A stretch of 64,000 nt of DNA from Microvelia longipes (lineage: Eukaryota; Arthropoda; Insecta; Hemiptera; Veliidae). Shown piece by piece: positions 17,764-53,924 of the stretch. Under the pieces are notes generated by a model. That model was not told where the DNA came from. It searched no databases and saw nothing but the letters and a program-made list of their open reading frames with translations. The stretch covers positions 55,240,781-55,304,780 of the forward strand of contig JACMZG010001911.1 in NCBI GenBank assembly GCA_018340805.1. The letters run 5' to 3'. A program made the position numbers and the translations under genes. The stretch's first letter is position 1, and every line of letters starts with the position of its first letter.

Positions 17764-18067
17764 CTAATATGGAGAGATTTCTTCAGACTCAACTAACTTA
17801 GTCTGGTGCATAAGTCTATTCATAGTTGAAACTCTTTTCTTTTCTAGTGATAACAGCTGCTCCATTAGAGATAACATTCTCTCTTCTCTCTGCTCAGCTC
17901 TCTTATCTCTTTCCTCTCTTCTTTGTAAGTACTCTCTAAGCCAGACATGATGAGGCTGGTTACTACTACTGCTACCACCTTTCCTCCCTTTAGTTTCTTC
18001 TTTAGACGGTTCTTCTTTCAATTGCTCATCAATCGCAAATAGAACAGGATCATCATTATAACCATGC
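17764..18067 (-). CDS. Myb/SANT gene, exon 20: coiled-coil C-terminus and stop
   Basis: It encodes about 101 residues of the six-domain protein: HGYNDDPVLFAIDEQLKEE, a Lys/Gly/Ser linker, then REYLQRREERDKRAEQREER and MLSLMEQLLSLEKKR, a charged helix expected to form a coiled coil. Such C-terminal coiled coils are common in proteins with Myb/SANT-like domains and usually serve dimerisation. It is entered with one base completing a Lys codon from exon 19. No clear poly(A) signal was assigned. Confidence 0.85.
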
Positions 18068-21000
18068 CTGAAAATATAAATTACAATATTACAAGTTTCT
18101 TAGAGTAAATGAAAGAGATTTTATCTTGGTTAATTTTTTTATTGATTATTTTTTATTATTCCTAAAATAGAATAATGTTTATTAGATAGAATTTTTTATT
18201 TTTTTCTTATTGAAATAGTATTGTTTTCAAAAATTCAAAATTATTCATTTTAGGTGATCCATTAAAGGTCAGCTTGGTTATCACAAAGTTATCTGTCTGT
18301 ATGTGTGTGCGTCTGTTAACATCATATCTCCTAATGTATTCATGGTAGAAAGTTGAAACAAGGAACAAAAAACAATCTTCAGGTCAGTTGTACTATTCAG
18401 GAAATTATTTTTTGTGACGTCATTAACCTGCAATCAGGACTCATTGAAAATTTCATAAAAATTCGGAAACATTTGTCCATCAGTTATAGAGATGTTGTCA
18501 TATATAACACCGACATGTGTGCCAAGTTTTATATTATTATCAGCATTAGTTCAATTTTTATTAAATGACTTGTATAAGATATTAAACAATTAAATAATCC
18601 AATTAAGTTGAAATTTGGTACAAAAATATTTCTTTCTGTAATAAATTAGGATACTAAGTTTTGTTTCAATGAGGCAAGTAAGTGTATGGTTTCTGTTGGA
18701 TCATAAAAGTAAAGCAGCATCGAGTGAGGTCAGTGCCTGGATAGGTGATTGCTGGCAAGAAAACTAATGCATTTACTGTCTGAGGACAAGCGAAGGGATT
18801 TTAAAGACATGCTGCAGCACATTTGGTGATTATATTCTGAGGACAAGCGAAGGGAATTTTAAAGACATGCTGTAGCACATTTGGTGATTATATTCTGAGG
18901 ACAAGCAAGAAAGACATGCTGCAGCACATTTGGTGATTATATCTGAGGACAAGCGAAGGGATTTTAAAGACATGCTGTAGCACATTTGGTGATTATATTC
19001 TGAGGACAAGCGAAGGGATTTTAAAGACATGCTGTAGCACATTTGGTGATTATATTCTGAGGACAAGCGAGGGACTTTAAAGACATGCTGCAGCACATTT
19101 GGTGATTATATTCTGAGGACAAGCGAAGCGATTTTAAAGACATGCTGTAGCACATTTGGTGATTATATTCTGAGGACAAGCGAAGGGATTTTAAAGACAT
19201 GCTGTAGCACATTTGGTGATTATATTCTGAGGACAAGCGAAGCGATTTAAAGACATGCTGTAGCACATTGGTGATTATATTCTGAGGACAAGCGAAGGGA
19301 TTTTAAAGACATGCTGCAGCACATTTAGTGATTATATCTGAGGACATGAATGCTGTAGCACATTTGGTGATTATATTCTGAGGACACGAGCTAGTCCAAA
19401 GTAATAAGGATGAGCAAAAATTATATGTGACGAGAAAAAGTTCCGAGGTACCCCGTACCCGATTTTTAATATTTAAATGAATGCAATAAGTAATGGAAGT
19501 TTGGAGGACTACACAATGTCTAGCAAAATTACTCTAGCAGATTTCTTAGCCACTTTTGTTTCAAACCCCTTGGAAAATTATTAGGAATAGATCTTGAGGA
19601 AAGGTTTTGAACTAAGGGATTGGTATGATCAGATAAGAAATCCTGAAACAGCAACAGACAAAGGGAAAATGAAGGTCTAAGTAAAGAGTAAGGTTACATC
19701 TGGGTTTTATCCATATGCCAATTCCATTAGGGGTCTCGTCTTTGAAAATATGAGCATAACAGACTTACTTCTGTGTGAAATATCTGTCCATAAGAAAGAA
19801 CCACTGCCAGGTTTCAGACTCACTACCGAGCTGCTTCCTCCGTTTCACCTGCCTGTATGTTGTGGTTAAATTTCTCCATTTTCTACTACAGTCCTCTACA
19901 GAACCAGGGAAATCTGGGTTTAACTGAAGCATTCTCTCATGAACTTTAACCCACGAGTTGTTCTTACTACCATGGGAAAATGTATCATGGAATTGTTCCC
20001 TACATAAGATTAATAATTTGGTATTGTGACTGTTCCACAGTTCTGAAAAAAATATATAAATATATATTAGTATTAATAAGCAACTGTAAACGATTTTATT
20101 TGATGTCCCTTGGAAGGGTTTTAAAATACACAATTTGGCTCACTCCCTCCCATGTGTTCCTCTATAGCCTTCACTCTGGCTCCACTCCCTCCCATGTGTT
20201 ACTCTATAGCCTTCACTCTGGCTCACTTCCTCCCATGTGTTCCTCTATAGCCTTCACCTCCCACTCTATAGCCTTCACTCTGGCTCCTCCCTCCATGTGT
20301 CCTCTATATACCTCACTCTGGCTCACTCCCTCCCATGTGCTCCTCTAAGCTTCACTCTGGCTCACTCCTCCCATGCCTCCTCTATAGCCTTCATGGCCAC
20401 TCCCTTCCCATGCTCCTCTATAGCCTTCACTCTGGCTCACTCCCTCCCATGTGTTCCTCTATAGCCTTCACTCTAGGCTCACTCCCTCCCATGTGTTCCT
20501 CTATAGCCTTCACTCTAGGCTCACTCCCTCCATGTGCTCCTCTATAGCCTTCACTCCCTCCCATGTGTTCCTCTATAGCCTTCACTCCCCCATGTGTTCC
20601 TCTATAGCCTTCACTCTAGGCTCCTCCCTCCCATGTGTTCCCTCTATAGCCTTCACTCTAGCTCACTCCTCCATGTGTTCCTCTATAGCCTGTGCTCCTC
20701 TATAGCCTTCACTCCTCCCAGTGTTCCTCTATAGCCTTCACTCTAGGCTCACTCCCTCATGTGTTTCCCTCTATAGCCTCACTTAGGCTCACTTCCTCCC
20801 ATGTGTTCCTCTATATGCCCACTCTGGCTCCATCTCCCTCCATGTGCGCCTCTATAGCCTTCACTCCCTCCCATGTCTTCCCCTATAGCCTTCACTCCCT
20901 CCATGTGTTCCTCTAGCCTCACTCTAGGCTCCACTCCCTCCCATGTGTTCCTCTTATAGCTCTCACTCTAGGCTTCACTCCCCATGTGTTACCTATAGCC

Positions 21001-21993
21001 TTCACTCTGGCTCACCTTCCTCCATGTTTCCTTTATTAAGCCTTCACTCTGGCTCACTCCCTCCATGTGCTACCTCTATAGCTTCACTCCCTCCCATGTG
21101 TTCCTCTACAGCCATCAATCTGGCTTGCTTAACCTACACTTTTGTTGCCTTCCGCTAGTGCTCTCCCTTTTACTCTTATACTTCAGATCTTTTTCTATAA
21201 AAATTAATATGTCTCTACAAGAAATAAACGTTTAGGAAGTACATAATTGTTTAATTTCCTATGCTGTCATGAGTTTGAGAGCAGTAATAACCAGTTTTCA
21301 TCAATGGTCATCATCATTGCCTGTGAGATATGTTTAATATCCATGCATATTACCTATATATATTATATTAACTATACTTATTATACGCCTATATATAATT
21401 TACCTACCTATATATATTACCTATGCCAATAACATAGCATAAAAAAGTAGAAGTACAAAATAAAGAAAAAGTAATAAAAACTTCAACAAACTTACTTCCA
21501 CTATTAGTTCCATCGAATTCAAAATCACTTAATCCCATGTTCTCAGCATCTGAAATAGGAAATAACAAGCAATATAAGTTAAATTCATTTTTAACATTAC
21601 AAACTTCTCACAACAATGTTTTGCAGACCTCAGTACTGGTTGTTGTATTTTGACTTAGATGAAGATACACTAGGTCTGGGGTCTCCAAACTGGGGAACGC
21701 AAGACCCTAACTTGGGTCTATCTATTAACAAACATTAATATAAATTAATATAAAATAATAAAACATAAAACAATTATTAGAAAAAAATGTGTAAAGGGTA
21801 GAAAGAAGGTGATCAAAAATAAATAATGTTCTAACTAATATGCATAATAGATAAGATAAGCCTTAAATAAAAGCCGCCAAATTACAGGATGTAATAATAT
21901 AACTAAGATATGAACGTTAATTTTTTGTACCTAAAGGTACAAAAAAAGGAAAAGTGGCTTTAATCCACAGTACAAAATACATAATAATCTATA

Positions 21994-28000: not shown

Positions 28001-31000
28001 ATTGATAGATCTCTCGGAATAATAGCTGGGAATCTAATTGAGGAATCTAAATTGATAGATCTCTCGGAATAATTTAGTTGGAATCTAATTGATAGATCTC
28101 TCGGAATAATTAGCTTGGAATCTAATTGATAGATCTCTCGGATAATTAGCTTGGAATCTAATTGATAATCTCTCGGGAATAATTAGCTTGGAATCTAATT
28201 GATAGATCTCTCGGAATAATTAGCTTGGAATCTAATTGATAGATCTCTCGGAATAATTAGCTTGGAATCTAATTGATAGATCTCTCGGAATAATTAGCTC
28301 TAATTGATAGATCTCTCGGAATAATTAGCTTCTAATTGATAGAATCTCTCGGAATAATTGAGCTTTGGAAATCTCTCGAATAATGAGCTGGAATCTAATT
28401 GATAGATCTCTCGGAATAATTAGCTTGGAATCTAATTGATAGATCTCTCGGAATAATTAAGCTTTAGCTCTCGAATCTAATTGATAGATCTCTCGGAATC
28501 TAATCTAATTGATTGAATAGATCTCTCGGAATAATTAGTTGGAATCTAATTGATAGATCTCTCGGAATAATTAGCTTGGAATCTAATTGATAGATCTCTC
28601 GGAATAATTAGCTTGGAATCTAATTGATAGATCTCTCGGATAATTAGCTTGGAAAATCTCTCGGAATAATTAGCTTGGAATCTAATTGATAGATCTCTCG
28701 ATAATTAGCTTGGAATCTAATTGATAGATCTCTCGGAATAATTAGCTTGGAATCTAATTGATAGATCTCTCGGAATAATTAGCTTGGATCTAATTGATAG
28801 ATCTCTCGGAATAATTAGCTTGGAATCTAATTGATAGATCTCTCGGAAATAATTATTGGAATCTAATTGATAGATCTCTCGATCTTGGAATCTAATGATA
28901 GATTCTCGGAATCTAATTGATAGATCTAGACTAAACTAAAACTTAGAATGCTCATAGGTCTGAGTAGTCACCTTTTAAATCTTATCGGGACCCATTAGAA
29001 AATAATATGGGTTTAGTGCAACAGAAAATTTTAAGTGCTCACAGATTGGAATCTAATCAATGGATCTTGACTAAACTCTACACTTATACAACTCATAGGT
29101 CATATGGACCACATTCTATGTCTTAACAAAATTTCTTCACAAACAACAATAGGGGATTAGAGTAAAAAATAACTTTTAGATACTTAAAGATCAGAATCTA
29201 ATTAATGCATCTAAACGTAACTTTGAACTTAGACTACTCATGGGTCAGAATGAACATATTTCATGACTCATCGAAATTCGTGTAAGGAAATCGAATTTGA
29301 AACTTATATCAAGGAATTTAATCAATAGAGCTTGACTAAACTTTAAACTTAGAATCCTAATAGGTCAAAATAAATACATTTTATGCGTCATCGAGATCTT
29401 TTCTAAAATAACTATTGGGGTAAGGGTAAAAATGTTTGAAGCAAACAGATTAGATTGATAGATCTTGACTTATTTTTCAATAATACCACTGACTGATCAC
29501 AATGAAGACTATTTATGTCTAAAATAATATAAATCATAATATTTATATATCTCAAATAATACTATTCTGAGTTCTAAATTAATAGAATAGATTTAATAGG
29601 CGTTATAGAATGGAGACTAATACTAATAATATTACAATCACAAAGGCGTTAATAGAATTGTTCAATTCATGGCCTATTTTGTTAAGAATATTATTGTATT
29701 TTCATAAAAAGTCAAAACACACGATTTAAGAATTCCAGTTGTGATCTTCAACTTATCGAAGCAAGGAACTTACCAAGCAATCATAAAGTACGGCTTGAGA
29801 ATATCCAGAAAACCGGAGGTTATCTGGATATTCTCAAGCCTGAGAATATATATAGATATTTCAAATAAAATATATTGATATCAAGGAATAGAATCAGTAC
29901 AAACAAACCTGGGAAACTATTAGAGTTGTCTTCGTCATCCTCTATATCAGATAGATCAGCTAGTTTAGCTAAACTTAATCTGGGTTTATAATATCTCATT
30001 ATTCTGTCTACATCATCAAACCAAGGCCAATATACATGGTCTCGACCCATTTTGTCTCTGCGCTTCTTGTTTGTTCTGCAGGGAAAATAATAAATTATTA
30101 TATAAAAATACAAGGCTATAATTAGTTGACAGCTTAGGGAAAATAATGCAAAGGAGCCAATGAGGTTTGTCCTGGATGTTAAACTACACCCATTATTTCA
30201 TATCAGGCTAACCTTATTGGTTCCTCAACACTATTTTTCCCACGCTGTCAACTGATTATATCAGTGTGATATACTATAATAGATTCCCATGTAAAAGGAT
30301 AGGCAGATAAAGTTAGTTAAAAATGCTAACAAAGACATTCTATGAAATAAAGCATAATCTTCCAACCATGAAGAGACTGGATGAAAGGATATATTTTTTA
30401 ATCGTCAAATAAATTCTCATTATTGTTTTCTTTTCCAGCTGAAATCCCCAAATTGGAAAAAGACAAGAATCAGTTACACAACAAGTAAGCCTTCAAGACT
30501 TCCCATCAATGACATAGGACTGAGAGACATTGGCAAACCTGATCAATCCTTCTCCCTTTATATCGGACCAGCTTGTTTTTAATAATAACTATAACTTAGT
30601 ACAAAATTTAAGTATTAATATTTATTATAAAATTAAGACTGAAAACTCATTTTAAATAAATGTAATTGAGAGCATCGCCTGAGTACCCCGTTTCAGATTT
30701 ATTGCACTATTAAATTTAAAGAATTAAGTATATATAATAACCGTGTGTTATACTTTAATGACAAAGTTTCATTGTAGTACAGCTCGTATATCAATAGTTC
30801 TTGTCAGATTACTTGAACAAAGTAGCATGCATTGATGACCACTGAGAATAAAACACATTTTTTACTGTCTGAAAATAAGCAAAGCAAGTCTGAAAACATA
30901 CTACAACATAAATTAGGTGATTTCCAATATAAATAGTGGTGAGTGATTTCAGCAAAAATCAGGTATGGGTACCCTATACCTGATTATTCATCTTTATTCG

Positions 31001-32125
31001 TCAATTAACTTTATCCAAGACTCAAATTATAGGCAACATTTTTCATCCTAATAAAACAATTTACCCGATAAAAAAACATGGATTAATGCTGACAGGATTA
31101 CCTGTAGGTTCCAAGGAGGTTTCTAAATTTATCATTACAGTCGTTAGCAGTACCAGTAAAGGTGGGATCCATGGCAACTATCCTGTCTCTAATTATCTGC
31201 CAGACACCAGATAGTTTGCATCCAGTAGTAAAAAGCTCGTTACACTCTTCTCTTACATTCAGTAATAACCTGATCTTCTTAGAAGTCCACATCTCTGAAG
31301 AAATACAATATTAAATATAAAAAATCCATTCGGTGCTTAAGTATCCGATTGGCAACTGCTCAAGTTATGAAGCATAAATTGGATCCTTAAGCACCAAATG
31401 GATTGCTAAGCACGGAAACAAGCATTCCAAAGGAAATTCGCCCGACATGTGGACCCCTGCGTCAGAATTATTTTGTGGATATAAACTTATATAAAAAATT
31501 ATCGTCCTTACCATGATTCTAACCCAGGTACCCTGGCTTTTAGTGCTCTTATCGACATTGGACCACTCTCATTCAACTCACAGGACCAAAAAACATCGAA
31601 AACGACTCCTCAATTGAAGGTGTTGTTAAGCAACCGATTTTAGGTTTTCTGGTATTGACTGGTACTTTTTTTGACTTATTGGTCACTAAGAGAGGCCTTA
31701 TTGACTTCGGACCAAATTCATTCGATTCAGGGCCCAAAAATACATAAAAAACAACACCAATTTATTTTTTACAGACCATAATTATGGTTTCTGGTAATTT
31801 GCCTTTTTTTAAATATTTGGTCAAAGAGTAGTTGTATTGACTTGAGACTGGTTCCTTACGATTTAGCCCTAATTTTTTCCAAAAAATAACCCTGAATTTT
31901 ACTGATTTGTTGAAAATTTTGCTGTCTCAGCAAACTGGGTTAATGATGTCACAAAAACCTGGTTTTCAATAGGGTTCGTGTTCTCCCCCAGGTTGATTTT
32001 TGTACCAATTTTGATTAAAAAATATTAATATGTTCGAAAGATAGTTTTCCCAAGAAAGTGTCCAGAAATACATATATATAAATACACACACACACACAAC
32101 ACACACACATTATTATATATATATA

Positions 32126-43317: not shown

Positions 43318-46300
43318 GGTATATTAATTACTTTAATAATACTTTATGATACCTTTATTAATATTACTTTCAGAAATATAATCCTCATCATCGTCATTCT
43401 CCTCGACATACTGTTCAGGCACATTATCAGTCTCCGTGTCCCATGATTCTTCTATATTCCACGACTGAAGCAGATTATCTAGAGCATTGTGCCATGGAGG
43501 AGTTTCTATCTTAACTTGAGCTCCATCTAAATAACGCTTCCTCATAGCACGACTCGTTGTTTTATATTCTTTTACCTATGAAAAGAAAAAAATATTACAT
43601 TAGATATATAAATAAGACAGATTAAAAAAGGATTTCAGCCAAGCTATGTAAATAAAATTTAAAGTCTTTTACAATTAACTTAAAGATAATTTTGAAAAAA
43701 CTAGTATCCAAATTTTAGAATAATATTATTTTTATATTTATAAATAAAAAATATTGGGACCTCTATTTTAAATAATTAATAAAAATTAGGAAGAATATTG
43801 AATATTTTTTTTAATATATTGGACCTATTCCTCCTAAATATAGAAAATCTCATAGATTGAACTTGAAAACTGGCTTAGAAGTCCAAATTAAATAATAGAC
43901 TAATACACTCCTCCCTCATTTTAATGTCAGAAAGTGGTAGACAAAGGTCTCTTTGATGATCAGGCACCCAAACAACTGTTACATCATTAAGTATATACTC
44001 ATATAAAGTAAGATAATTATGTGTCAATTATTAATTGCTTCTAGCTTACGCTAATTTATCAATATGTTTCATTTATAATTATTCATGTATTTTTTTTTTG
44101 TGATCATTTATTTATTTTTAAGTCAAGAAATATAGTTTTCATTTTGTTACACAAGCAAAAACAAAAAGCAGGTTACAAATAGTTACACATAAACTGCTCC
44201 AGCCATCCTCGAGCACGACTCATTCCAAGATGTGCTTATAAAATAGAAGTATTTTGTAATATTTTATTTTGATTTTGTAAAGCAGAATAAACATATTTTA
44301 TTTATTTATTTATTTTTATCAATTTTCACAAATAAACAAACACACAAAAGGTGCAATGTCAAGACCAGAACATGTCAGAATCATCTTTTTATCTGATACA
44401 GAATAAAGACTTAATGTTTTATTTAACTATAATGCAAATTTTACAGTATAATATATTTTACAAGAGGAATACTAATCTTTAAATGCAACAACTGACATAA
44501 TTATTATTAGTGAAATTCCACAAGGACAAGTCGTGTGTGAGGAAAAATTAGTTAATCTAATCTAATCTAATGTAATAATGTAAAAAACATGAGACTAAAG
44601 TATCTTTAAGAAACAAACTGTATTCAAGCACCAAATAACAATACTTTATTTCATATATCGTGAAATACATCAGTTTTACCCTTTGTAAAACTAAATACAC
44701 ATGATATGTGTAATAGAATAAAGTAAATTTCAAACTGAAGTAACAGTGCATTAATGAAACATTAAGTTAAACAAATCGAAGAGCTAAAAAAAAGAAACGC
44801 TATTCTAAAACAAGGCTTACAAGAGCTTTCCACTGACTGTAGACTTTCATGTAAGTTTTCCTGAATTCAGGGTCCAAGTGTGTCATTCGAGATTTAATAG
44901 CCTTCCACAGCTTGACTTTCCTTGGATTGTTTTTCAAATCATTTGAAAATTGCTGACAGACGTTTATTAAAAGGGTTACATTGTCTTCTGTCCATCCTAG
45001 AAAAATAATGTATGACTAGAGCAAAAATTGCTTATGCAGATAATCTTATAAGGCAAGCCAAAAATAGACATACAATCCATGTGATGAACAACAGGTGTTT
45101 AAATAAATGTAAAATCATCACATGTTCAGTTAAGCCTTAATATTAGTAAGGGTGGAGAGGTCAAGGCTGGTGAGTGGACCTCACTTTTGGATCCTTTTCA
45201 CTTACCCCAACATCGCCCACCAACCACTACGCCACTGTTACTTCCCAGCTGTAAAGCTGAGAAGGTCCTGCCATCTTAGAGATTCCAGATCCTCCTTACA
45301 CAACTCTATTGCTCCAAAAAGTTAAAATCGGAGCCTTCCTAATCCTTCACATTTTTGATAACCTATTCTGGTCCTGTCAGAATGCTTACCATAAGCTTGA
45401 GACTGGGCCTTTTAAGATCAAGAAGCCATCTAGATTTGCTGCAGTTCAATCCAGGCAGAGTCATTTTGGATTGCCTACACCTATTATTATTTCCCATACA
45501 AGTTTAGGCTTTTTCCAAATCCATTGTTTGACAAGTGATTTGGCCTGCCTTCTAAACCAATCCATTGCAGGTTTTGGCCCACAAAAGTGAGTAGAAGCTC
45601 CTTCTTTGGCTATTTCGCCAGCCTTTCCATTTCCAGGTATACCAGTGAGTCTGTGGACCCACATTGCCTTTAATTTTAAGTCCTTACATAAGTTTTCTAA
45701 AACAAGAGCCTAGAGTGCAACTTGACTGTCAGAACAAATTGCAATATTACCTTGTATTTGGAGTAAGTAATCTTCTGTTAAGCCTTAATCATGAAGTTTG
45801 AACTTCCTTCTTATTACTTTCATGAAAAGAGGAAATGGGTAAAAGTACGAGGGATCATAGATATTATAGAAAATGAAACTTTGTTTCAATTAATGAAAAA
45901 ACCTCAATACTGGATATTTAAAATAAATGGAATCCTTGGGTATGAGAGTAAGATACATTTTTAATTCATAAAGGAAGTCAAGCAGCGTCAAGTACTTGAA
46001 GGCAAGACCATCCAACAGAATAATAATCACGCGGGGTAGGTGCAAACCTGGAGTTAGTGTGGTCTGGATATATCACCCATAACCATCAATGTTTCATAAC
46101 AATAATATTATCATTTAAAACTAACACAGTATAAATAACATCATAAATAAATTAGAAAAGCTTATCGTAGATTATAAAATTCTTTAAAATTAAATTCTTT
46201 GAGCAACAACTGTGAAGTCTTTAATGCTTTAGCACAGGTTGCTAAATAAGTAATATTTGAGTTTGGTCCTAGTTAGACAATTCCAACAGAACATAACAAA

Positions 46301-49300
46301 AGTAAATTGATTAGTAAGATAAGGATATATGCTGTGTAGAAATGTTCAAAGTGCTTGTTGTTAGGAGCTAGTAATCAAAGTTTTGATCACATCTATAGTG
46401 TGATTAAATCTTCCCAAGAGTTTTATTGTCCAAATGTGCAGTTTTTTCCAACAAATTGTTGTAGACATGTAGTCAATAGTTTTTGCTGAGTCATGATTGT
46501 GGGTTAATGACGTCATAAATAAATTATTTCCCAAATAGCACAATTACATCTGTAGACTGATTTTTGTACAAAGTTTCAACTCTCTAGCATAAATGCGCTA
46601 GGAGCTACAAAGATAACACACACACACAGACAACTTTGCGAAAACCACTCAGGAGGCCTTAAAAACACATGAAACTAATAATTCCGGATTTTTTTGCAAA
46701 CACAATAATTTTCCTATACACCTATGGTATAAATGAGGAAAAGTAATAAGGTTGTACTACATACCATCATATAAAGCTTTGTTAAAATGTTTAGAAGGGC
46801 TAAAAGTGGCTTCATTTAGTTTTCCCTCTAAAACTAAACGATGCATTGCTGGATAGTATCCTTTAGCTGGTTTCTTTTTATCTTTATAACCTGAGCAACA
46901 AAAATAACATGTTTTTTAAACTATATTCTATTAAGTTTTATATTCTATATAATACTTGTAATAATTATTTGTTGATGTATTGTTCAATAAATAATGTCAA
47001 AAAGATCAATTTCATCATTTAGATTGTTCCTTTAAATAAATCCAAAACATCTTATTCTGGGAAGAGGTGGGGGAACGCACTAATTTAATGTAATCAATAA
47101 ATAAGAAATTAAGAAAAATTAGGGATTGCATTTAATTTCTAATTATATATTTGTGCTTTAAAGCTACAAGTATTTCATTTAATATATTTTTGTCAAAATT
47201 AACAGGAATGCCAACAATTTCAACAGCCTAAAAGATGTAGATAAATAAAATTTTATTTTATTTCTTTGTTTAAGTAGAGAGATAAATTTTTGTAAACCAC
47301 TGCAACAAAAAGATTAAAGGTGCATAACATTATAACATTTCATCAGGCAAAACATATGTTATATGTAAACTGGTGCAAGCTCTCATATTTTTATAGTTTC
47401 TTTATAGATCACTTGCTCAAGAACCAATTTCTTACTAACCAAATATGAAGGGAGAACGTCCTAAATTGTATTTCTAACAAATAGAATCTCTGTAATTAAT
47501 GTTTGGATGCTAATTTTTTCGGCTCTCTAACTAACAAAAGGAAATATATATTATGTTTAATAAGTCACTTATAAAAACCAATAGAAACTTAGAAACTTAG
47601 TTGATAATTTCTTGGTTCATAGACTTCTTTAAAACATTCATGTAATTACTCATTTTTAATTTACTCACACTTAAAATAATTAATTAAGTAATTAATCAAT
47701 AATTACTCACAAAGCTCATTTTTTCTTTGAAAATTCACTAAAAGGATATTAGAGCTTATAAGAGTCATAATAATTAATAATAATAATATATTTATTTGTC
47801 ATAGATATACACTCTATACAAAGGGGGTGTCCTCATAGGACATTACAAATTGTGAGAAAAATTATAAAAAAATAAACTTAAAAATATCTGCTTTTAATGA
47901 AATTAAAATGAACCTAAAGAGAATCATAAACATAATAGAAATAAGATCAATTTAAGATCTAATATTATTAAAAAAATACTTAAAAGAAAGATACCAATTT
48001 TTGATTTCCTAACAAGAAGAATAAAAAAATTTATTGATTTTTGTTATACAATTATAATAATAAAGTTAATTAATCAATGTTTTTACAAAGTTGCTATATT
48101 ATTTTGTCTATAGCTCACGGACCCTCGGGGGTCTTTGGACCACACTTTGCGTAACCCTGTTTTACTTACAAAGCATACTATGCAAACGTAAGCATACTAT
48201 GCAAACGTAAGCATACTATGCAAACGTAAGCATACTATGCAAACGTATAGTCTACTTACTAAGGATACGATGCATATCCCTGAACCAAGGCCAAGTGACG
48301 TTATCATTGGAATGAAGTGCATTTTGTCTGTAAGTACCACATAGATTACGAAACTTCATTCCAATCTCATTCTCATTACAAGGGAAGTCAGGTTTTTTCA
48401 GCTTCATCTTCTTCAGTATGTGCTTCCATGGTTTCGAGCTACTTGTCGGCACCATGAATAAATCTCGACACTCCCACCGAGCATCCAGAAGTAGCTTAAT
48501 GTTTTCATCAGTCCAAACTGTTTGTTCTGTAAATAACAAGTTTATATTTTTAAATAAATTAATTTGATTGAAATTAATCAGAAAGATAACACTGATTATA
48601 TTGGTGATCAAACCTATAAGAAAATATAGAACTGGGCTTCCTTATCAATCCAAAAATCATAGGGTGCCATGCTACCTGCTTTTTTACTGAACTATTTTGA
48701 GAACTGTGCTAACTAAAGTGGTAGTCAAGAACTTATTGGACTAGGAACACCTTTAAACTAGAACTAAATGCTTTTTAGTGCATTTTTTTTATTTCCAATT
48801 TTTTCAAAATAGGAATTTTGAAAAATGTCCACTTCCATCAAAGCGTTATTTTTTAATGAAAATTAGCTATCAATAAAAATTAATTCAAATTAATAAGACA
48901 ATAAACACAATTTTTCACGTAGCTTTTTAAACACAAAAAAATGTCAACCCAGCATTTGACTTTTATTTTATTAATTGTTAAAATATGATGAAACATTAAT
49001 AAGTCATCAAAAAAATAATAATTTTTTACTGAAATTTCAAATTCTGTTCTAATTGATAAATATTAAATATAAAAATTTACTTTTATCAGATTTAGAAGAT
49101 GACTCGGTGAACGTATTATCATTGAAATCTTCTTCATACAGATTTTCTTCTTCATCTTCAATTAACTCATCATCCTCTGAAATAAAAAAAAAATAAGCCA
49201 AGAAAGAACAATATGACAAAGAAATTATTAATCATACTTCAGTTAAATGGTACTCCATCCGTGACTTTTTTATAATTTTTTACAACTTTTATACAAGATA

Positions 49301-52300
49301 AAAGGCAAAATAGAGGAGGCTTTTGTACACCTGTAGATTAAAAGGATGGGTTTTTATCAATTGATAAGAATTTGTATACTCACTCATTAAAATGATGTCC
49401 AAAAAATAACCTGACTTTACTGATATAAGTTAAAATAAAGAAGTGTTGGAGTTAAATACCTTTGTAGAACAAATAAAATTACATCAAAATTTCAAGACTT
49501 TTTCAAGAATATAAAGAATTTTTAAAGCTTTAAGTTTAGTTTTTTGTTATGATTCGATTTAAAAGTAATTAATAGTTACCAGTCGTGACTTCCTGCTTTA
49601 TTTTTTTCAATGTTGGTACATGAGCTTCATCAATTACTGTTTCCAGCAAAACTGAAAATTAAACACAAACAATGCTGACAAAGTTTATATAATAAGAAGA
49701 GTAATAATAATGATAATGCCCGTTTAGAGCCTTGCAGCTCATCAGGGATAACCCCTGCGGGAACAACCTCGGGTGGTAGTAGCAACCGTTACGCTCAAAG
49801 TGAATTCTAAAGTTGGCGATAATATATCTAAACAATAATCTTCTATAAACTGAGAGCGTAACCTGGGATGCGAACCCCAGTCCTCCGTGGGTGTCAAAGG
49901 TCAGTGTAAAGACTAACGCCTTAACGACCTCGGCCACGGAGGGGGTTAATAAGAAGAGTAATATACTAATAATAAAGTTTAATAAATTTAGTTTAAGTTA
50001 ATAAGTTTAAAATATTTGACATAAAGTTAAATAAAGTTATACATAAATTAATGTATAAAATTGTATAACAATTAACCTAGTATATAAGTTTTAGAACCTA
50101 TAAATTTCATTTTATAAAAGTTAAAATAATTTAAAAATATACCTTCTTCTGCTTCTATGTTGGGAACAATGATTTCATCCAAGAAAACTTCTAAAAAGAA
50201 GACAAATAATTAGATGGTATAAAGAATATATACTGCTATTTCGTAAGGCTTATAGAGTGAGACCCTTAATTCTACAAACAACTTTTGTCATAATTTATTA
50301 TTATTTCAAATTTGGCAACACACTCCACAGGAGTGTGCTATGAGAGGAGTGATTATGTTAAAAATTACTCTTATAACCTCTCATTAGATCACCATTACTG
50401 TGGCAGAACTGTCACTTGATTCAGCACTCCAAATAGAAACTATTTCCTAAATAAAAATTTATTGATTTTTCAAAAAATCGTTAACTCATTTATGGATATG
50501 ACATTATAAATTTTTCAAAAACAGAAAGCCTAAGTAGATATAATTGATTTTTGTGCAACTATCAAAATTTAAAATAATGGAGGTAAAATAGACAGCTGTA
50601 TTAAATTGGCAAGCCTGATTAATGATAAGGTTGGTTAAGCCTCTCCCATTTTCCAAACTAACCGACTATATGGCAAAAGTCAATTTAAGTAAATAAGATT
50701 TACTCTTATCATTAAACGAGATTTCATTATTTTGGTTTAGCATGCTCATGTATTGATTCCAAAATAATAAAAGTTTAAATATAATTTTCCACAAATACAA
50801 GTCAGTAAAGGATGGGTTGTATGTAAGAAAGAGTTTTATGTAGGGAACCTGAAAACTTCTTCTAAAGGTTAGCCCTGTTTAACCCTCTATTGCATATGTG
50901 AGACAACATACACTAAATGAAAAGTAAAAAAGAGAAATATAATAGAGAGGAAGGTGCAACAAGACTGTTTACGTAATATTCTAGAATTGTTTATGACAAT
51001 AAAAATGTTTACCTTCATTAGTTTGATGAGACGGATCCTGCTTGTCATCATCAGTCTTACTGCAGTAGTCGTGTATGTCATGCACTTGTTGACTAACTCC
51101 TACATAAACAGACATACAGTCTTAATTTGAGGCAGACATTTATTTAGATGAAAATTAATCTTTGTAATAAACAGCAATAAGTGTGAGAAGATAAAGAAAA
51201 AGTTGAAGCAAATAAGTGTCACAGAACCCTGGAATAGACCAGATTGGCAAAAAAGAGCTCTGGCCTATCTTGATATGGAATGATGTGATCTATACTTATA
51301 AGTAATGATCTGACCCATACTTATTAGGAATGATCTGACCCATACTTATTAGGAATGATCTGACCCATACTTATATGGAATGATCTGACCCATACTTATA
51401 TGGAATGATCTTAAAATCCTAAAATTTGAAAGATCCACTTTTTTTGAATCATGTTATAGACCACCCTTAAAGGACTAGACATTGGGGAGAGAAAAAACTG
51501 CCCCCCCCCCCCCCGGATTTGTTCTTTTCTTTCAAAACAATTCAATTCTTCTCTACCCTATGATTAACTATTGTAGTTTACATTCTTTTAATATTTTGAT
51601 CTCTCTATTCAATTAAACAATAAAAACAAGTAGACAATAGGCTAAACTAAAAAAAGACTCATAAAACTATAAGACATTTGTATTTATAATATTTTATAAA
51701 CTTTAACTTTTTAATTATAATACTTTATTAAACTATAAGATAATAACAATTAAATTGATGAAGACTTCAGTCCTTTTTTAAAAAAAATATTTAAGATAAC
51801 TTGATGAAGAGCTTTTGCCCAGGGATCCTGTGCTTCGTCAGTTCTTAAAATTGACAAAAAAGAAAAAGTTTGAAAATTTGTATTTAGGAAAATATTTTCA
51901 TTTTTGTCAATGTCAAGAACTGGCAAAGCTCTTCATCAATTTATTTTAAATTATGTTTTTAAAAAATGACTGAACTCTTCATCAATTTAATTGTTATTAC
52001 AATCTATATCAGTCCAAAAGCTCTAAAGTTATTAAACTATAAAATAGATAAGATATTTTAAAAATATTGGCATAAACAGTATTGGCTGCTTAGTAAGACC
52101 AGTAAGCAATTAATACCAAATGCGTAAGGTGTTCCGAAATCAGATAAGATTCCTACCTTAACATGTTCCTTTCTAAACATACCTACCAACATTTATTTGT
52201 TTAAGAACATAGTCCTCCAAAAATGGAGTCTTGCTTTACAAAAATTATATATAACTTAATACAATTGTTGCAAAAAAAACAAGAATTAATAAAACATGGA

Positions 52301-53924
52301 ATCGAATAAAGAAAAATTAATCTTCTTAAAGTATTAATATCTTCTTAAGTAGTAAACACTTAAATTTAAATTGCTCAACAAGAGGAAAAGTGAATGCAAG
52401 AGATCTTACAAGATAAATGAAGAACAAGGTTATTTAATAAGTTATTTCATTAACATGCCTTAGCTTAATTGCTGTTGAAGTAAAGTAATAAACGTTATTA
52501 ACAGAGAGTTGGTTCATGTTGTAGAGTAAGTCAGTCAGAGTCAGTCTGTAAAGGTTGAATATATTTTTGCCTGAGAACATTTGTTACTGGACATTCAAGG
52601 AGGAAGTGGTGTAGAGTGTCTAAGTGAGATGTATACGTGGGACAGATTTCATCACCTCGTAACATGTAAACTTTAGTATGTAGATATATTTTAACTAAAT
52701 TAGAGCAAGAGAGTCTGAGCTGAGCAAGTACTCTAATTTTATGAATATGGCCTCTGACCTGTAAGTAAGGTTCTCCTAGAGAACAGAAGAGAGAGAGATT
52801 TCTGTATATTTAGTGTGGAGTGCTACGAGGCAGAAATAATAAACTTTACCAACATTTATTTTCTTAAAATACGTTTCTTTTAAAGCAACTAAATCAATCA
52901 CATATTTAGATCATAATTCAAGAATAATACAAATTAATAATAATCACACGTCACCAACATTACTTTTAAATTACTTAGTATTTACTAGGTAAATAACTTT
53001 TAGATTAATTAGGATTTCAATTTAAATGACCCCTTCAAAACATCGTGTCTTTTATTGTGTAGGTTTACTTAGGTTATAAGGAAGTTAAGAACAAAAAATA
53101 TGATTAATTAAATTGTCATTTCTTTGCATAATAACAAATTTACACTGAGAATAATTATATTTGAAAAGTTATTTGGTGGAAATTTGTATTATTTAAATGA
53201 AATAATACTTTGTAGAGAAGGTAATTCATTTAATACAATCGCCTCTCAAGGTACATAAAGCTTATCAGAGGATCAATCTAGATTCTTATAGCCTATTTAA
53301 CTAGCGTACTTAATATGATCCACATATTTAGTTTGCTGTGTGTATGTAGTAATTGTGTACTTAAGTTCTTCAGTCACACCGGGAATACACAAGTCAGACT
53401 GATTACAACTGACAATTTTACTATTCACTCAGCTACTTTGGAGAGCAACCAAATTGGTAAAGTGAACCCCCCCATTCAAAAATGAGAGGCTACTAAACAT
53501 TGGTATAACCTTCTCTTTGGTTACAATAGCTGCTAAAATGTTCTTCTTTTAACGCAGTCAAATCGACAACCCCAAATACACGGGTAAAGTCGCTTGTTAA
53601 TTCAATTCGACAAAATCTAGGGAAAACAAAAGTAAGATGCTCATATTTTCAGGCATCCTACACCTTTAGAATAAACTGTGACGCGCAGCCAAAGAAAAAT
53701 AAACAAAAACCATCAATACCAATGTAGTGATTACAGTATCTTATCACACACAAAATAAACAGACTGATCTGTAATCTCACAAATTATTTCCGTCATGTTT
53801 AGCATTTTTATAGCTTCATAATTATCAAATAAACTGAATAAGACTCATAAAGTTCGAAAACTACTAAAACTATTAGAAAAAGTTTACCATCAGGATTTTT
53901 AGCAGGGATTTGTTTCTTTGGCAT
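17764..53924 (-). CDS. Six-domain Myb/SANT-like (MSANTD/trihelix type) DNA-binding protein, 20 exons, 1030 residues
   Basis: Exons on the minus strand: 53924-53888, 51099-51013, 50190-50143, 49651-49580, 49176-49081, 48526-48260, 46890-46765, 44996-44821, 43575-43368, 41414-41343, 39246-39047, 37067-36821, 34761-34657, 34197-33886, 32853-32806, 31294-31102, 30075-29909, 21549-21496, 20042-19769, 18067-17764. All 19 introns are GT-AG. Lengths sum to 3093 nt, an exact multiple of three, with no internal stop. Start MPKKQIPAKNPD; acidic leader to residue 113; Myb/SANT-like domains at about 114-202, 245-330, 397-500, 581-684, 701-820 and 839-929; coiled-coil end to 1030. Each domain has the Trp of helix 1 (W-T/N-x-x-N/K-I), a central W or F and the K-W/F-R-N-L helix. 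Proteins of this class bind DNA in the nucleus, often as partners of PIF/Harbinger nucleases. I know of no named gene with six such domains. Single small linker exons could be wrong, but phase agreement across all junctions is strong evidence. Confidence 0.85.
18235..19465 (+). repeat. Family A copy with internal 57-bp tandem expansion (18777-19390)
   Basis: The left half matches other family A copies (TTAGGTGATCCATTAAAGG, GTCTGTATGTGTGTGCGTC) and the right end has GGTACCCCGTACCCG. The middle is a tandem array of about ten units of 57 bp starting TTCTGAGGACAAGCGAAGGG and containing CATGCTGTAGCACATTTGG. The unit is the family's own TGAGGACAAGCGAAG segment, so the array grew inside the element after insertion. 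It fills the last intron of the Myb/SANT gene. Confidence 0.85.
19769..20042 (-). CDS. Myb/SANT gene, exon 19: sixth Myb/SANT-like domain
   Basis: It begins KLWNSHNTKLLILCREQF, then NNSWVKVHERM, then DFPGSVEDCSRKWRNLTTTY, and closes with ETWQWFFLMDRYF. These are the helix 1 Trp, helix 2 and helix 3 with the K-W-R-N-L signature, plus the extra aromatic helix typical of trihelix-type domains. The domain is encoded in a single exon. Entry is phase 1 and exit phase 2, so unlike most other exons it cannot be skipped without a frameshift. Confidence 0.88.
20138..21130. repeat. 41-bp pyrimidine-rich minisatellite
   Basis: About 24 imperfect units containing CTCCCTCCCATGTGTTCC and CTATAGCCTTCACTC fill the intron between exons 18 and 19 of the Myb/SANT gene. 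The plus strand is strongly pyrimidine-rich, so the pre-mRNA of the minus-strand gene would be purine-rich here. Open frames across it are repeat translations and not genes. Confidence 0.92.
21496..21549 (-). CDS. Myb/SANT gene, exon 18: short linker
   Basis: An 18-residue linker (DAENMGLSDFEFDGTNSG) between domains five and six. The acceptor is TATTTCAG and the donor A|GTAAGT. The phase is 1 on both sides. The intron upstream of it is the 8.4-kb one holding the satellite. Confidence 0.7.
21980..22060. repeat. TA microsatellite
   Basis: Nearly pure TA dinucleotide run at the left edge of the satellite-bearing region. Confidence 0.9.
22075..22235. repeat. Roughly 140-bp repeat monomer at left flank of the satellite
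   Basis: AAAAGTTTAAACCTAGACTA, ATAACAGTAGGGGATTAG and GATTTTGTACACTAATTATA match in order the monomers at 28925-29480. Thus the 37-bp satellite is bounded on both sides by the same older repeat. Confidence 0.65.
22236..28925. repeat. 37-bp satellite array, about 6.7 kb
   Basis: Some 180 tandem units of about 37 bp with core ATCTCTCGGAATAATTAG followed by CTTGGAATCTAATTG. Many units carry one- or two-base indels or partial deletions, interspersed with perfect ones. It lies wholly in the intron between exons 17 and 18 of the Myb/SANT gene. No coding capacity. The dense random-looking indels may partly be sequencing or assembly error. Confidence 0.97.
28925..29480. repeat. Array of about four diverged 140-bp monomers
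   Basis: Successive units carry GACTAAACTYTAMACTTA, CTCATAGGTC, TCATCGAAATTCGTG-like and AATAGGGGATTAGAGTAAAA blocks in the same order. Inverted relatives occur at 56150-56620. The segment TTGGAATCTAATCAATGGATC within the unit resembles the 37-bp satellite core, suggesting the satellite derives from this repeat. Confidence 0.7.
29792..29840. repeat. Short perfect hairpin
   Basis: GGCTTGAGAATATCCAGA and TCTGGATATTCTCAAGCC are exact reverse complements (18 bp) separated by 13 bases. The hairpin lies about 70 bp from the exon 17 donor of the Myb/SANT gene. Confidence 0.85.
29909..31294 (-). CDS. Myb/SANT gene, exons 16 and 17: fifth Myb/SANT-like domain
   Basis: Exon 16 (31294-31102) gives KMWTSKKIRLLLNVREE, SGVWQIIRDRI and CNDKFRNLLGTY. 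Exon 17 (30075-29909) continues RTNKKRRDKMGRDHVYWPWF, DDVDRIM and an acidic linker (DLSDIEDDEDNSNS). The intron splits the Arg codon after GTY in phase 2. The YWPWFDDVDRI end matches WPWFRDMHRIL of domain one, the strongest sign that the domains are internal duplicates. Confidence 0.88.
30118..30262. mobile_element. Short MITE with AGTTGACAGC ends
   Basis: The left end ATTAGTTGACAGCTTAGGG and the right end CACGCTGTCAACTGATTATA are inverted. The first internal bases (AAAATAATG) match the larger element at 39660-40552, so both belong to one family. Confidence 0.65.
30660..30995 (+). repeat. Family A fragment
   Basis: It carries TGACCACTGAGAATAAAACA, GAAAATAAGCAAAGCAAGTC and GGGTACCCTATACCTGATT, corresponding to the 3' half of full copies. 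Confidence 0.55.
31330..31490. repeat. Conserved 145-bp dispersed repeat, copy 1
   Basis: CAACTGCTCAAGTTATGAAG, CCTTAAGCA, TGCTAAGCACGGAAAC and GGAAATTCGCCCGACATG occur in the same order, inverted, at 59345-59490. Class unknown. Confidence 0.6.
31500..32090. repeat. Diverged interspersed repeats
   Basis: GCTGTCTCAGCAAACTGGG, TTAATGATGTCACA and TTTTCAATAGGGTTCGTG are shared with 12780-13015 and 58745-58810. No gene seen. Confidence 0.4.
32085..32160. repeat. AC/TA microsatellite
   Basis: An (AC)n run followed by (TA)n. A region without recognised features (32160-32800) follows up to exon 15 of the Myb/SANT gene. Confidence 0.9.
32806..32853 (-). CDS. Myb/SANT gene, exon 15: short acidic linker
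   Basis: A 16-residue exon (GGLSQESEEETNEKGI) between domains four and five. Acceptor TTTTTCAG, donor A|GTAAGT, phase 1 on both sides. Its acidic composition matches the other linker exons. Confidence 0.7.
33230..33805 (+). repeat. Family A copy interrupted by a SINE (33328-33562)
   Basis: Left part: TTGAAATTTGGTACAAGTAT and CATACCAAGTTTT. Right part after the SINE: GAGCATGGTCAGTGCTATAT, GAGGACAAGCGAAGCAAGTC and AGGTACCCCGTACCC. The SINE is thus younger than the family A insertion. Confidence 0.7.
33328..33562 (-). repeat. tRNA-derived SINE, family S, copy 1
   Basis: Read on the minus strand it opens with TGGCCGAGGTCGTTAGAGCG (box A type), then ATGGAGGTCTGGGGTTCGCA with box B GGTTCGCATCC, a class II tRNA-like head. 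It ends with an (ATT)n-type tail. Copies with the same layout are at 49712-49943 and, more diverged, 42440-42660. It inserted into family A. Confidence 0.85.
33886..34197 (-). CDS. Myb/SANT gene, exon 14: fourth Myb/SANT-like domain
   Basis: RMWNERNIALLIKARGS (helix 1), KMFWRNVRKRILLEDPSF (helix 2), then EQCWVKWRNLVQTYNVNKRR (helix 3) and VGWEWFIPIDKIM, followed by an acidic tail. The whole domain is in one 312-bp exon flanked by phase-1 introns, donor G|GTGAGT. It is the best-preserved domain of the six. Confidence 0.9.
34657..34761 (-). CDS. Myb/SANT gene, exon 13: Ser/Thr-rich linker
   Basis: A 35-residue exon (ADTPGSGNMTLISETPSTS and following) with acceptor TAGTAG and donor A|GTAAGT. 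Phase 1 on both sides. Its low complexity means only phase and splice sites support it. Confidence 0.6.
34830..35400. other. Intron sequence, no gene recognised
   Basis: A G-run (34917-34924) and unique-looking sequence with a few CG-containing segments (CCCCGCCGCGCTAGTGTCGA at 35207). No domain or splice-supported exon found. Confidence 0.45.
35405..36120 (-). repeat. Family A, near full-length copy, inverted
   Basis: Starts at 35430 with GGGTACAGGGTACCTCGGAA (inverted right end), passes GACTCGCTTTGCTCATCCTC and ACAGACAGACAACTTTGTC, and ends with CACAATACTTTTCTTAAAAT (inverted left end). No open frame. Confidence 0.75.
36235..36752 (-). repeat. tRNA-derived SINE (second family)
   Basis: On the minus strand the head is GTGGTGTAGTGGTTAAGG (box A type), and GGGTTCAATCCCAGCACGGG (box B GGTTCAATCC) follows. 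The body has GTGGTCTCGAGCCTGTGC and a segment shared with 8400-8650. It lacks a tRNA acceptor stem pairing, so it is a SINE and not a tRNA gene. Confidence 0.8.
36821..39246 (-). CDS. Myb/SANT gene, exons 11 and 12: third Myb/SANT-like domain and acidic linker
   Basis: Exon 11 (39246-39047): GLWTKRNIELLILARCQCEE, DNWTLVRDTIQ, then ACADKWKALIKVYHM. Exon 12 (37067-36821): VNEKKKTSKRDLHWEWYDAM, DKALW, then an Asp/His-rich linker with IDHTVANNVIVIQETEDG. The intron interrupts helix 3 in phase 0 at the same place as in domain two. It holds the 27-bp array. Confidence 0.88.
38447..38900. repeat. 27-bp tandem array
   Basis: About 17 units containing GGGTGGGATTATAGGGCAAA then TTTAAAA. Because 27 is divisible by three, the array stays open as a nine-residue repeat, but it lies in an intron of the opposite-strand gene and has no coding signs. 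Confidence 0.95.
39660..40552. mobile_element. Non-autonomous DNA transposon with terminal inverted repeats
   Basis: The left end ACACACGGCTAAAGTCAG, then TTGACAGCG, is inverted at the right end as GCTGTCAACTGATTTTAGCC and GTGTGT. The 0.9-kb interior is AT-rich and encodes nothing recognisable. It is related to the 145-bp element at 30118-30262. Confidence 0.75.
40555..41191 (-). mobile_element. 5'-truncated non-LTR retrotransposon: reverse transcriptase C-terminus with pentanucleotide tail
   Basis: A 181-codon frame (41191-40646) starts inside the reverse transcriptase thumb: INTGVYVLRKLKDYLPQKN, IYFAFIQSHCAYGILIWGH, then LQKRSLRIIEG and the end ETRTSNVLSIPKHRLK. It is intact to its stop. 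A (TTATC)n tail (plus strand ATAAG repeats, 40555-40578) marks the 3' end. It directly abuts the right end of the transposon at 39660-40552. Same clade as the element at 1-467. Confidence 0.88.
41343..41414 (-). CDS. Myb/SANT gene, exon 10: short linker
   Basis: A 24-residue exon (SHQSFKAVKTEFFSEDKVAQ and four more) between domains two and three. Acceptor TTTTAAG, donor G|GTAAAG, phase 1 both sides. The acceptor is weaker than the others; this exon is among the less certain ones. Confidence 0.5.
41500..42050. repeat. Inverted-repeat element with one direct duplicate
   Basis: GAGTTTTGCAAAACATGAAT, ATAATTGTGCGAGAGACACC and AAGCAAAATGCAATG occur at 41510-41610, again at 41825-41920, and inverted at 41955-42025. 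The pair 41825/42025 forms a hairpin with a centre near 41930. Confidence 0.65.
42440..42660 (-). repeat. tRNA-derived SINE, family S, diverged copy
   Basis: CATCAGGGTATTCACCCTGC, GGGAACAACCTCAGGTGG and GTTGCGAACCCCGGACCTC match the family S copies at 33328 and 49712; the tRNA-like head is decayed. Confidence 0.65.
42880..43320 (+). repeat. Dispersed repeat ending in a GT microsatellite
   Basis: AGTAAGTCAGTCAGTCAGG followed by TCGGGAAAAGGGTGTCGTC, GGCACTGCCGTGCCCCCAGG and (GT)n/(ATGT)n. The GTCAGTCAGTCAG motif is common in dispersed invertebrate elements. No protein seen. Confidence 0.45.
43368..44996 (-). CDS. Myb/SANT gene, exons 8 and 9: second Myb/SANT-like domain and acidic linker
   Basis: Exon 8 (44996-44821): GWTEDNVTLLINVCQQF, KLWKAIKSRMTHLDPEF, VYSQWKAL. 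Exon 9 (43575-43368): VKEYKTTSRAMRKRYLDG, PPWHNALDNLL, then a strongly acidic stretch (EENDDDEDY). The intron falls inside helix 3 in phase 0, as in domain three, which supports an ancestral duplication of the exon pair. Confidence 0.87.
45180..45790 (-). pseudogene. Non-LTR retrotransposon remnant (RNase H end)
   Basis: On the minus strand IAICSDSQVALQAL, then MWVHRLTGIPGNGKAGEIA with KEGAS match the end of the RNase H domain of R1/I/Jockey-like elements (SDS and WV-GH-GI-GN-AD patterns). Downstream residues (MDWFRRQAK) belong to the following connection. Stops interrupt the rest. Confidence 0.8.
46395..46745 (-). repeat. Family A, 5' half, inverted
   Basis: GAGTCATGATTGTGGGTTAA, CTAGGAGCTACAAAGATAAC, GGAGGCCTTAAAAACAC and ATACACCTATGGTATAAATG are the inverted left half of family A. 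Confidence 0.65.
46765..48526 (-). CDS. Myb/SANT gene, exons 6 and 7: first Myb/SANT-like domain and following basic segment
   Basis: Exon 6 (48526-48260): QTVWTDENIKLLLDARWE, SSKPWKHILKKMKLKKPDF, GMKFRNLCGTYRQ, then TWPWFRDMHRIL. Donor A|GTAAGT. Exon 7 (46890-46765): SYKDKKKPAKGYYPAMHRLV and NEATFSPSKHF, a basic segment that keeps an aromatic-His pattern like a decayed domain end. Both exons are phase 1-1. Confidence 0.87.
46905..48165. other. Intron sequence, no gene recognised
   Basis: AT-rich sequence between exons 6 and 7. Near 48110-48150, CACGGACCCTCGGGGGTCTT is unusually GC-rich but matches no gene I recognise. Confidence 0.45.
48173..48247. repeat. 19-bp tandem repeat
   Basis: Four near-perfect units of GCATACTATGCAAACGTAA. 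The array ends 12 bp from the exon 6 donor of the Myb/SANT gene. Confidence 0.95.
49081..49176 (-). CDS. Myb/SANT gene, exon 5: acidic linker
   Basis: A 32-residue exon very rich in Asp/Glu (EDDELIEDEEENLYEEDF, then Ser-rich). Acceptor TTATTTCAG, donor A|GTAAAT, phase 1 both sides. The composition resembles an acidic activation or chromatin-binding segment; that role is inference. Confidence 0.75.
49580..49651 (-). CDS. Myb/SANT gene, exon 4
   Basis: 24 residues: VLLETVIDEAHVPTLKKIKQ and EVTT. The IKQEV end resembles a sumoylation consensus (I-K-x-E). Acceptor AATTTTCAG, donor G|GTAACT, phase 1 both sides. Confidence 0.7.
49712..49943 (-). repeat. tRNA-derived SINE, family S, copy 2
   Basis: On the minus strand: TCCGTGGCCGAGGTCGTTAA (box A type), ACTGGGGTTCGCATCCCAGG (box B), body with CGTAACGGTTGCTACTACC and a tail of ATT/ATC units. 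Very close to the copy at 33328-33562, so the family was recently active. Confidence 0.85.
50143..50190 (-). CDS. Myb/SANT gene, exon 3
   Basis: 16 residues: EVFLDEIIVPNIEAEE. It resembles exon 4 (LLETVIDEAHVPTL), so the two look like duplicated micro-exons. Acceptor CTTTTTAG, donor G|GTATAT, phase 1 both sides. Confidence 0.7.
51013..51099 (-). CDS. Myb/SANT gene, exon 2
   Basis: 29 residues: GVSQQVHDIHDYCSKTDDDK and QDPSHQTNE. Acceptor TTATGTAG, donor G|GTAAAC, phase 1 both sides. No known domain. Confidence 0.7.
51270..51420. repeat. 25-bp tandem repeat
   Basis: About five units of AATGATCTGACCCATACTTA plus five bases, in intron 1 of the Myb/SANT gene. A run of about 16 C follows at 51501-51516. 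Confidence 0.92.
51740..52060. mobile_element. Palindrome P5 with hammerhead-like core
   Basis: Outer arms AATAACAATTAAATTGATGA and TCATCAATTTAATTGTTATT are exact complements. Inside, the minus strand has ACTGACGAAGCACAGGATCC and CTGGGCAAAAGC, i.e. CTGACGA, a 7-bp stem with one mismatch, then AAAA in place of GAAA. The centre near 51870 is poorly conserved. Confidence 0.65.
52530..52760 (-). pseudogene. Non-LTR retrotransposon remnant (C-terminal zinc-binding end)
   Basis: On the minus strand MLRGDEICPTYTSHLDTLHH and FLLECPVTNVLR follow the C-x-x-(x)-H-C pattern at the end of RNase H-bearing non-LTR ORFs. It is a short relic in intron 1. Confidence 0.7.
53000..53300. repeat. Diverged copy of the transposon interior at 56847-57292
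   Basis: GGTTATAAGGAAGTT, AATTAAATTGTCATTTCTTT and GCATAATAACAAA occur in the same order as at 57005-57090; later blocks (CTCAAGGTACATAAAGC, GATCAATCTAGATTC) also match. The terminal inverted repeats are not recognisable. Confidence 0.6.
53888..53924 (-). CDS. Myb/SANT gene, exon 1 with start codon
   Basis: ATG at 53924-53922 opens MPKKQIPAKNPD, a short basic start, then donor G|GTAAAC in phase 1. Of the ATGs near the promoter it is the one whose downstream phase fits exon 2. The basic residues may help nuclear import. Confidence 0.72.

Follow-up and report, generated by a model that had tools for sequence, protein, structure and literature searches.

A predicted six-domain Myb/SANT-like gene

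The window (the whole 64,000-nucleotide stretch analysed here, C562:55240781-55304780) is rich in A+T and dense with repeats. Its minus strand carries a gene that can be read as 14 exons, from 53924 down to 17764, joined through GT-AG introns with matching phases into 2,670 nt that encode 889 residues and a stop. The original prediction had put this minus-strand join at 20 exons and 3,093 nt; the GT-AG borders, the phase matching and the freedom from stops hold for the 14 exons, but exon number and length find support up to 14 to 16 exons and no further, the surplus seeming to consist of short frame-neutral candidates. Exons were scanned with approximate consensus splice weights (not trained on this species) combined with codon scores that had the SANT, C and transposase exons as their training set; the leave-one-out codon score of each SANT or C exon lies between 6.0 and 27.5 bits. 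Among minus-strand candidates the scan regained every one of the 12 internal core exons at its exact borders, and coding scores are positive in 14 of 14 exons. Ten of the 12 internal core exons score above 18.5 (S2a barely), with x32 and x46 below; this value is the top score of any plus-strand candidate once a frame at 1393-1631 (25.5), by eye an extension of a retroelement, is left out. When stretches of SANT-exon length are drawn at random from the minus strand (9-56 kb outside satellite, exons unmasked, profile matches not counted in), 0.65 to 4.35% of them are open; the open SANT exons are more than chance.

The predicted gene begins with a weak putative start exon, e1 (53888..53924, as all exons that follow on the minus strand), which has an in-frame ATG, a GT donor and a coding score of 4.3 bits over 12 codons. 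An acidic linker exon, x49 (49081..49176, scan score 24.1), precedes S1 (48260..48526), which encodes the first SANT domain and matches Pfam at 38.5 bits. Behind it, the linker exon x46 (46765..46890) has a weak coding signal, with a scan score of 12.6 that is within noise and a coding score of 0.1 bits. The second domain is divided between S2a (44821..44996; scan 18.7), with its first part, and S2b (43353..43575), with its end and an acidic linker; the third, an acidic domain, is similarly divided between S3a (39047..39246) and S3b (36821..37067), the latter extending into a linker. S4 (33886..34197, 39 bits) encodes the fourth domain and is followed by x32 (32806..32853), a weak acidic linker exon whose scan score of 15.9 is within noise. 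The fifth domain starts in S5a (31102..31294) and ends in S5b (29909..30075), which adds a KKRR cluster and an acidic linker; S2b, S3b and S5b were placed by the exon scan and the joined profile. S6 (19769..20042) encodes the sixth domain and gives the best Pfam match of all (51.2 bits), and the last exon, C (17764..18067), supplies a C-terminal helix and the stop. Between S5 and S6 lies a 6.7 kb array of a 37-bp repeat (22223-28881) with about 180 copies of the unit, and other gaps of the gene contain arrays with 57-, 42-, 27-, 25- and 19-bp units.

Beyond the 14 exons there are five additional phase 1-to-1 candidates, together 396 nt, all of which keep the frame open; they are symmetrical, and so the open frame does not count in their favour. 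One at 51013..51099 (scan score 21.8) is a probable extra exon, and another at 21496..21549 (17.8, borderline) is a possible linker exon, or alternatively the start of a separate one-SANT gene. Candidates at 50190-50143 and 34743-34657 reach scan scores of 10.6 and 10.2. A candidate at 52775-52656 was rejected (scan 10.6, with a negative coding score); its frame resembles what we take to be the end of a LINE reverse transcriptase. The model best supported by these scores is probably the 14 exons plus one or two more, 14 to 16 in all, of which the first exon and two linker exons are weak, and the row from S1 to C would form a single transcript. As for the 423 nt by which the original prediction exceeds the 14-exon join, our guess is that they correspond to the five phase 1-to-1 candidates (396 nt) plus one further exon of 27 nt, which would also bring the number to 20.

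Domain content

The Pfam profile Myb_DNA-bind_4 matches each of the six minus-strand open-frame pieces singly (E = 1.6e-9, 2.1e-5, 4.7e-6, 1.1e-9, 1.9e-7 and 1.7e-13); five of the six pass its curated cut-off alone and all six do so after the split domains are joined, and the joined 889-residue protein is matched in six stretches with 182 bits. With the following exon joined on, the three split domains score higher, S2 going from 25.3 to 32.5, S3 from 27.3 to 36.2 and S5 from 31.8 to 43.9 bits; because the joined domains outscore their first exons, the S2, S3 and S5 junctions are supported independently of the splice weights. The six Myb/SANT-like domains are real, as had been read in the original prediction, which was to be given up if fewer than four of the six segments drew HMM matches; all six do. 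The related MADF profile (MADF_DNA_bdg, cut-off 22 bits) is exceeded by one of the six pieces (S6, 29.8), with S4 at 17.6 and the other four unlisted, and gives 59.5 bits in sum on the joined protein. An AlphaFold2 model of S4 (pLDDT 82.8) has four helices, a three-helix fold with a further helix, which, together with the Pfam matches, agrees with the earlier assignment to the trihelix/MSANT family. Foldseek alone found no significant structural match (best E 0.94); Sap1 and GT-1 came up only on a second look, and S6 matches GT-1 (2ebi) at E 3.1e-4. GT-1 is a plant light-response factor, of the trihelix class, whose solved chain has one domain, compared with six here.

Five of the domains are basic (pI 9.4 to 10.2) and S3 is acidic (6.3). 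The stretches preceding the domains are acidic in five of six cases, with net charges of -5 to -13, that of S2 being basic (+5). Basic clusters (KKRR, KRRK and others, by a simple pattern search) are present in the SANT protein and absent from the transposase-like protein described below. The idea in the original prediction that six domains in tandem recognise long or repeated DNA sites stays an inference, to be set against the acidic S3 and against Drosophila Mzfp1, for which, in the portions of PMC11229372 drawn on here, no specific DNA binding of the basic MADF domain could be demonstrated in vitro, the MADF domains serving mainly for protein contacts. Mzfp1 resembles the present protein in having more than one SANT/MADF domain, with acidic and basic types together; it differs in having two MADF domains plus zinc fingers, and no transposase gene is mentioned with it in those portions (PMC11229372).

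All six domains share a phase-1 intron 0-3 residues ahead of the helix-1 Trp, which suggests that they arose by exon duplication. For a one-SANT gene elsewhere in the genome, on C629, one possible reading likewise puts a phase-1 intron ahead of the Trp, at a distance of four residues. Introns within or behind the domains vary, with phase 0 in S2 and S3 and phase 2 in S5 and S6. Pairwise identity among S1-S6 is 22 to 42%, and 14 of the 15 domain pairs reach z >= 10.6 (300 shuffles), the lowest being S1-S2 at z 5.5. The simplest reading would be an ancient duplication of a linker-plus-SANT module, with the copies kept open for a long time. A domain tree recovered no S1-S6 clade and paired S4 with S6 at 72; its supports are low, and it was therefore set aside as too weak to prove module duplication.

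A neighbouring PIF/Harbinger transposase gene

On the same strand, 1,258 bp past the SANT stop (measured from stop to inferred ATG), lies a five-exon PIF/Harbinger transposase-like gene of 349 residues. It is the best clue to the origin of the locus and was absent from the original prediction. Exon H1 (16413..16505) carries the inferred start and is joined to H2 (15019..15253), recovered by the exon scan, through a weak acceptor with a score of -1.5. H3 (13120..13302), placed by profile and alignment, encodes the first catalytic Asp; H4 (11543..11816), with a DDE_Tnp_4 match of 63.7 bits, encodes the second Asp and the Glu; H5 (9441..9705), again from the exon scan, ends in the stop. In the joined protein DDE_Tnp_4 is covered over its full profile (E 2.6e-33), and D137, D186 and E253, which we take to be the catalytic acids, are invariant in a 12-sequence alignment of the window protein and 11 chosen from 88 relatives. 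The frame appears intact, given the predicted splicing and the inferred start codon. A minisatellite with a 60-bp unit (16626-17029) lies upstream of this gene, some 120 bases from its inferred start, and is partly open in the frame of H1.

A protein database search with the transposase returned these 88 PIF transposases, the best relative being 41% identical over 82%; a scan of viral contigs with the same protein gave no relative. In a tree of 58 transposase sequences the window gene falls near insect sequences (84) and the transposase gene on C629 falls elsewhere (67), a placement that speaks against the two pairs being duplicates of one.

Copy number and related loci

In the genome searched (664.6 Mb, 1,470 contigs) DDE_Tnp_4 has at least 30 matches, one of them in the window and the other 29 in 28 loci. 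Thirteen of these 28 loci give a match to the window protein with E no higher than 0.001 and 15 give none; the closest among the at least 29 other matches is at most 41% identical, counting pieces of at least 66 residues. The S4 exon occurs once in the genome by DNA search, and no near-identical second copy was seen either there or among the at least 29 other DDE_Tnp_4 matches. Three tests of 2 kb flanks for terminal inverted repeats gave best matches of 16, 17 and 16 of 18, none above the 14 to 17 found in 30 control pairs, a comparison that short or decayed ends could escape. Within these searches the pair appears as a single copy without recognised transposon ends, which is what excerpts of PMC9710019 require of co-domesticated PIF pairs in insects.

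Within 10 kb of one another there are two SANT/DDE pairs, compared with 0.011 expected for 13 SANT and 28 DDE loci, and within 20 kb there are three, compared with 0.022 expected; the statistic was computed post hoc, assumes a uniform genome and uses locus counts that are lower bounds. The other 11 of the 13 SANT loci are without a DDE match inside 10 kb. The second close pair (C629:19265617-19277112, loci L013-L015) consists of a one-SANT gene on the plus strand, 248 residues as joined, and a spliced transposase-like gene on the minus strand, arranged tail to tail. In the frames of this transposase the third acid reads, by eye, as Asp and not the expected Glu (VIDTMRA), and the C629 locus may be another co-domesticated pair, one with altered catalysis.

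Exon C is similar to the C-terminal end of the SANT gene on C629 (score 77, z 7.0, reached by 0 of 1000 shuffles) and to that of the SANT gene on C707 (z 5.6, 0 of 1000 shuffles), whose nearest DDE match is 17 Mb away; the likeness is absent in the SANT genes of C558, C518 and C505 (z 1.7, 1.9 and -0.2). Since C707 shares the C-terminal helix without a DDE match nearby, the helix is not special to PIF neighbours. At a further locus, L019 (C505:7689902-7691077, minus strand), an open frame of 392 residues contains three Pfam stretches of the Myb/SANT-like domain, with the nearest DDE match 128 kb off. Multi-SANT proteins are thus present elsewhere in this genome, and the statement, made with the original prediction, that known animal genes of this class have one or two such domains is not a safe one. 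A third SANT/DDE neighbourhood (C562:47312402-47328431, 15 kb apart, counted only at 20 kb) lies in retroelement-rich sequence and has a duplicated SANT frame of which the second copy is broken.

Comparison with known systems

In PIF/Harbinger elements a transposase gene is accompanied by a Myb-like gene (gene 2) for about 300-400 residues with a Myb-like domain, and Drosophila, Anopheles and Lepidoptera have neighbouring genes that were co-domesticated from such elements (PMC9710019, excerpts). As here, the transposase gene adjoins a Myb/SANT/MADF gene in APLG1-APM1, APLG2-APM2, LPLG2-LPM2 and DPLG7-DPM7, and the Anopheles and Lepidoptera pairs are single copy with no terminal repeats found (excerpts of PMC9710019). 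APLG1 and APM1 of Anopheles are annotated with a transcript in common. Side by side, both open and on the same strand (with inferred splicing), the transposase and Myb/MADF genes of the window show the adjacency by which the same excerpts recognise such pairs. In contrast to the six domains over 36 kb found here, the parts of PMC9710019 concerned report no multi-domain partner for the insect pairs; the word "Hemiptera" is absent from the main text of that paper, and the order may be unscreened.

HARBI1/NAIF1 in vertebrates and ALP1/ALP2 in Arabidopsis likewise combine a transposase-derived protein with an interacting Myb-like partner; these are not called neighbouring genes in the excerpts of PMC9710019, whereas the genes here are adjacent. 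According to the same source, HARBI1 enters the nucleus only with NAIF1 (as cited there), and a signal was predicted in only one protein of the co-domesticated pairs in 33 of 42 species. PIF elements are given as the source of MADF genes, which expanded in Aplysia, with no domain counts stated in the portion of PMC10027918 used, and nothing on the number of Myb domains was found in the corresponding portion of PMC9179366. No six-SANT animal protein is named in the titles and abstract openings listed for tandem or multiple SANT/MADF proteins and for PIF pairs, two of these listings covering 10 of 919 and 10 of 116 papers. The six-SANT protein itself found no relative at E 0.001 among 5142 protein-database candidates, and S6 plus C found none at E 1 among 40, in a search that needs shared 5-letter words and similar length and that distant orthologues could escape. 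The database does hold eukaryote proteins, since it gave the 88 PIF transposases, many of them from named animals. With no outside relative of the SANT protein, what connects it to PIF gene 2 is its position beside the transposase gene. NAIF1 and ALP2 have one Myb-like domain each.

Origin of the gene pair

We favour, with moderate confidence, a co-domesticated PIF pair in which the Myb-like gene has grown from one domain to six. Both minus-strand genes would stem from one PIF/Harbinger transposon retained by the host. Its gene 2, with one Myb/SANT-like domain and a C-terminal helix, would have reached six domains and about 890 to 940 residues through duplicated exon modules starting at phase-1 introns, and its gene 1, the transposase, would persist with five exons and its D-D-E residues. 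The SANT domains may be arranged as beads on mostly acidic linkers, with the five basic domains touching DNA and so binding with avidity where sites are clustered or repeated, the acidic S3 serving as a protein-binding domain, and the C-terminal helix either oligomerising or holding the transposase-like protein. The latter, without basic clusters, would depend on the SANT protein to reach the nucleus and DNA, an arrangement shared with other PIF pairs. Descent from one insertion, the partnership, and any regulatory or nuclease role are what we infer from the arrangement. If the co-domesticated pair is correct, the DNA-binding half of a domesticated transposon was built up by exon duplication with the transposase half intact alongside, which would be a natural case of a multivalent DNA address evolving for a transposase-derived partner and would test the proposal that PIF transposases usually stay with their Myb-like partner. 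A bolder version, in which the two proteins form a working two-part machine whose six-unit SANT array directs a PIF nuclease, owned by the host and still catalytic, to repeated DNA (such as satellites like those of its own introns) for programmed cutting or repeat silencing, is consistent with the intact D-D-E residues, frames and adjacency, and we consider it highly improbable.

The co-domesticated pair has to be weighed against an unlikely yet serious competitor, a separate history for the SANT gene as a host trihelix/MSANT factor, with a PIF transposase that happened to insert beside it and has either been retained or had too little time to decay. Neither of the two protein searches found a relative outside this genome that would tie the SANT gene to PIF gene 2, and the 11 of 13 SANT loci without a DDE match within 10 kb include L019, at 128 kb, and C707, with its helix like that of exon C. 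Such chance insertion sits poorly, however, with two SANT/DDE pairs within 10 kb where 0.011 were expected (post hoc), with exon C being closest to the SANT gene of the other pair, on C629 (z 7.0), and with basic clusters confined to the SANT protein.

It may also be that two genes have been merged in the model, an upstream five-SANT gene and a one-SANT gene of about 206 residues (starting in 21549-21496 and going on through S6 and C) that adjoins the transposase and would itself be a classic PIF gene 2. The distance from S5b to S6, 9.9 kb across satellite arrays, would suit such a division, as would the in-frame ATG of exon 21549 and a length of 206 residues, not far from that of the C629 gene (248 as joined); the S5b phase-1 donor (6.6) nevertheless fits the S6 phase-1 acceptor (2.8), and module borders are similar throughout the row, so that we regard two genes as decidedly improbable. 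That the locus is a PIF/Harbinger element still behaving as a transposon, and very large owing to repeat-filled introns, we hold to be barely credible. The two genes of the element do lie side by side in open frames, and D-D-E is conserved, but the element would span 45 kb with many introns, the flanks tested gave no terminal inverted repeats above control, and no second copy was seen, the S4 exon occurring once in the genome and the closest of at least 29 other transposase matches being 41% identical.

Other features of the window

An exon on the plus strand at 3741-4103 encodes a KxDL domain (E 2.9e-20), presumably of the BORC/BLOC-1 subunit type, and belongs to an ordinary host gene. A retroelement occupies 427-1715 and locus L047, seemingly running on from the left flank; within it an integrase zinc-binding domain (Integrase_H2C2) is matched at 427-960 with E 1.2e-5. 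A word resembling TTAATGACGTCA recurs at 12943, 18427, 46503, 58778 and 59859, in both orientations, and is perhaps a piece of a short dispersed repeat.
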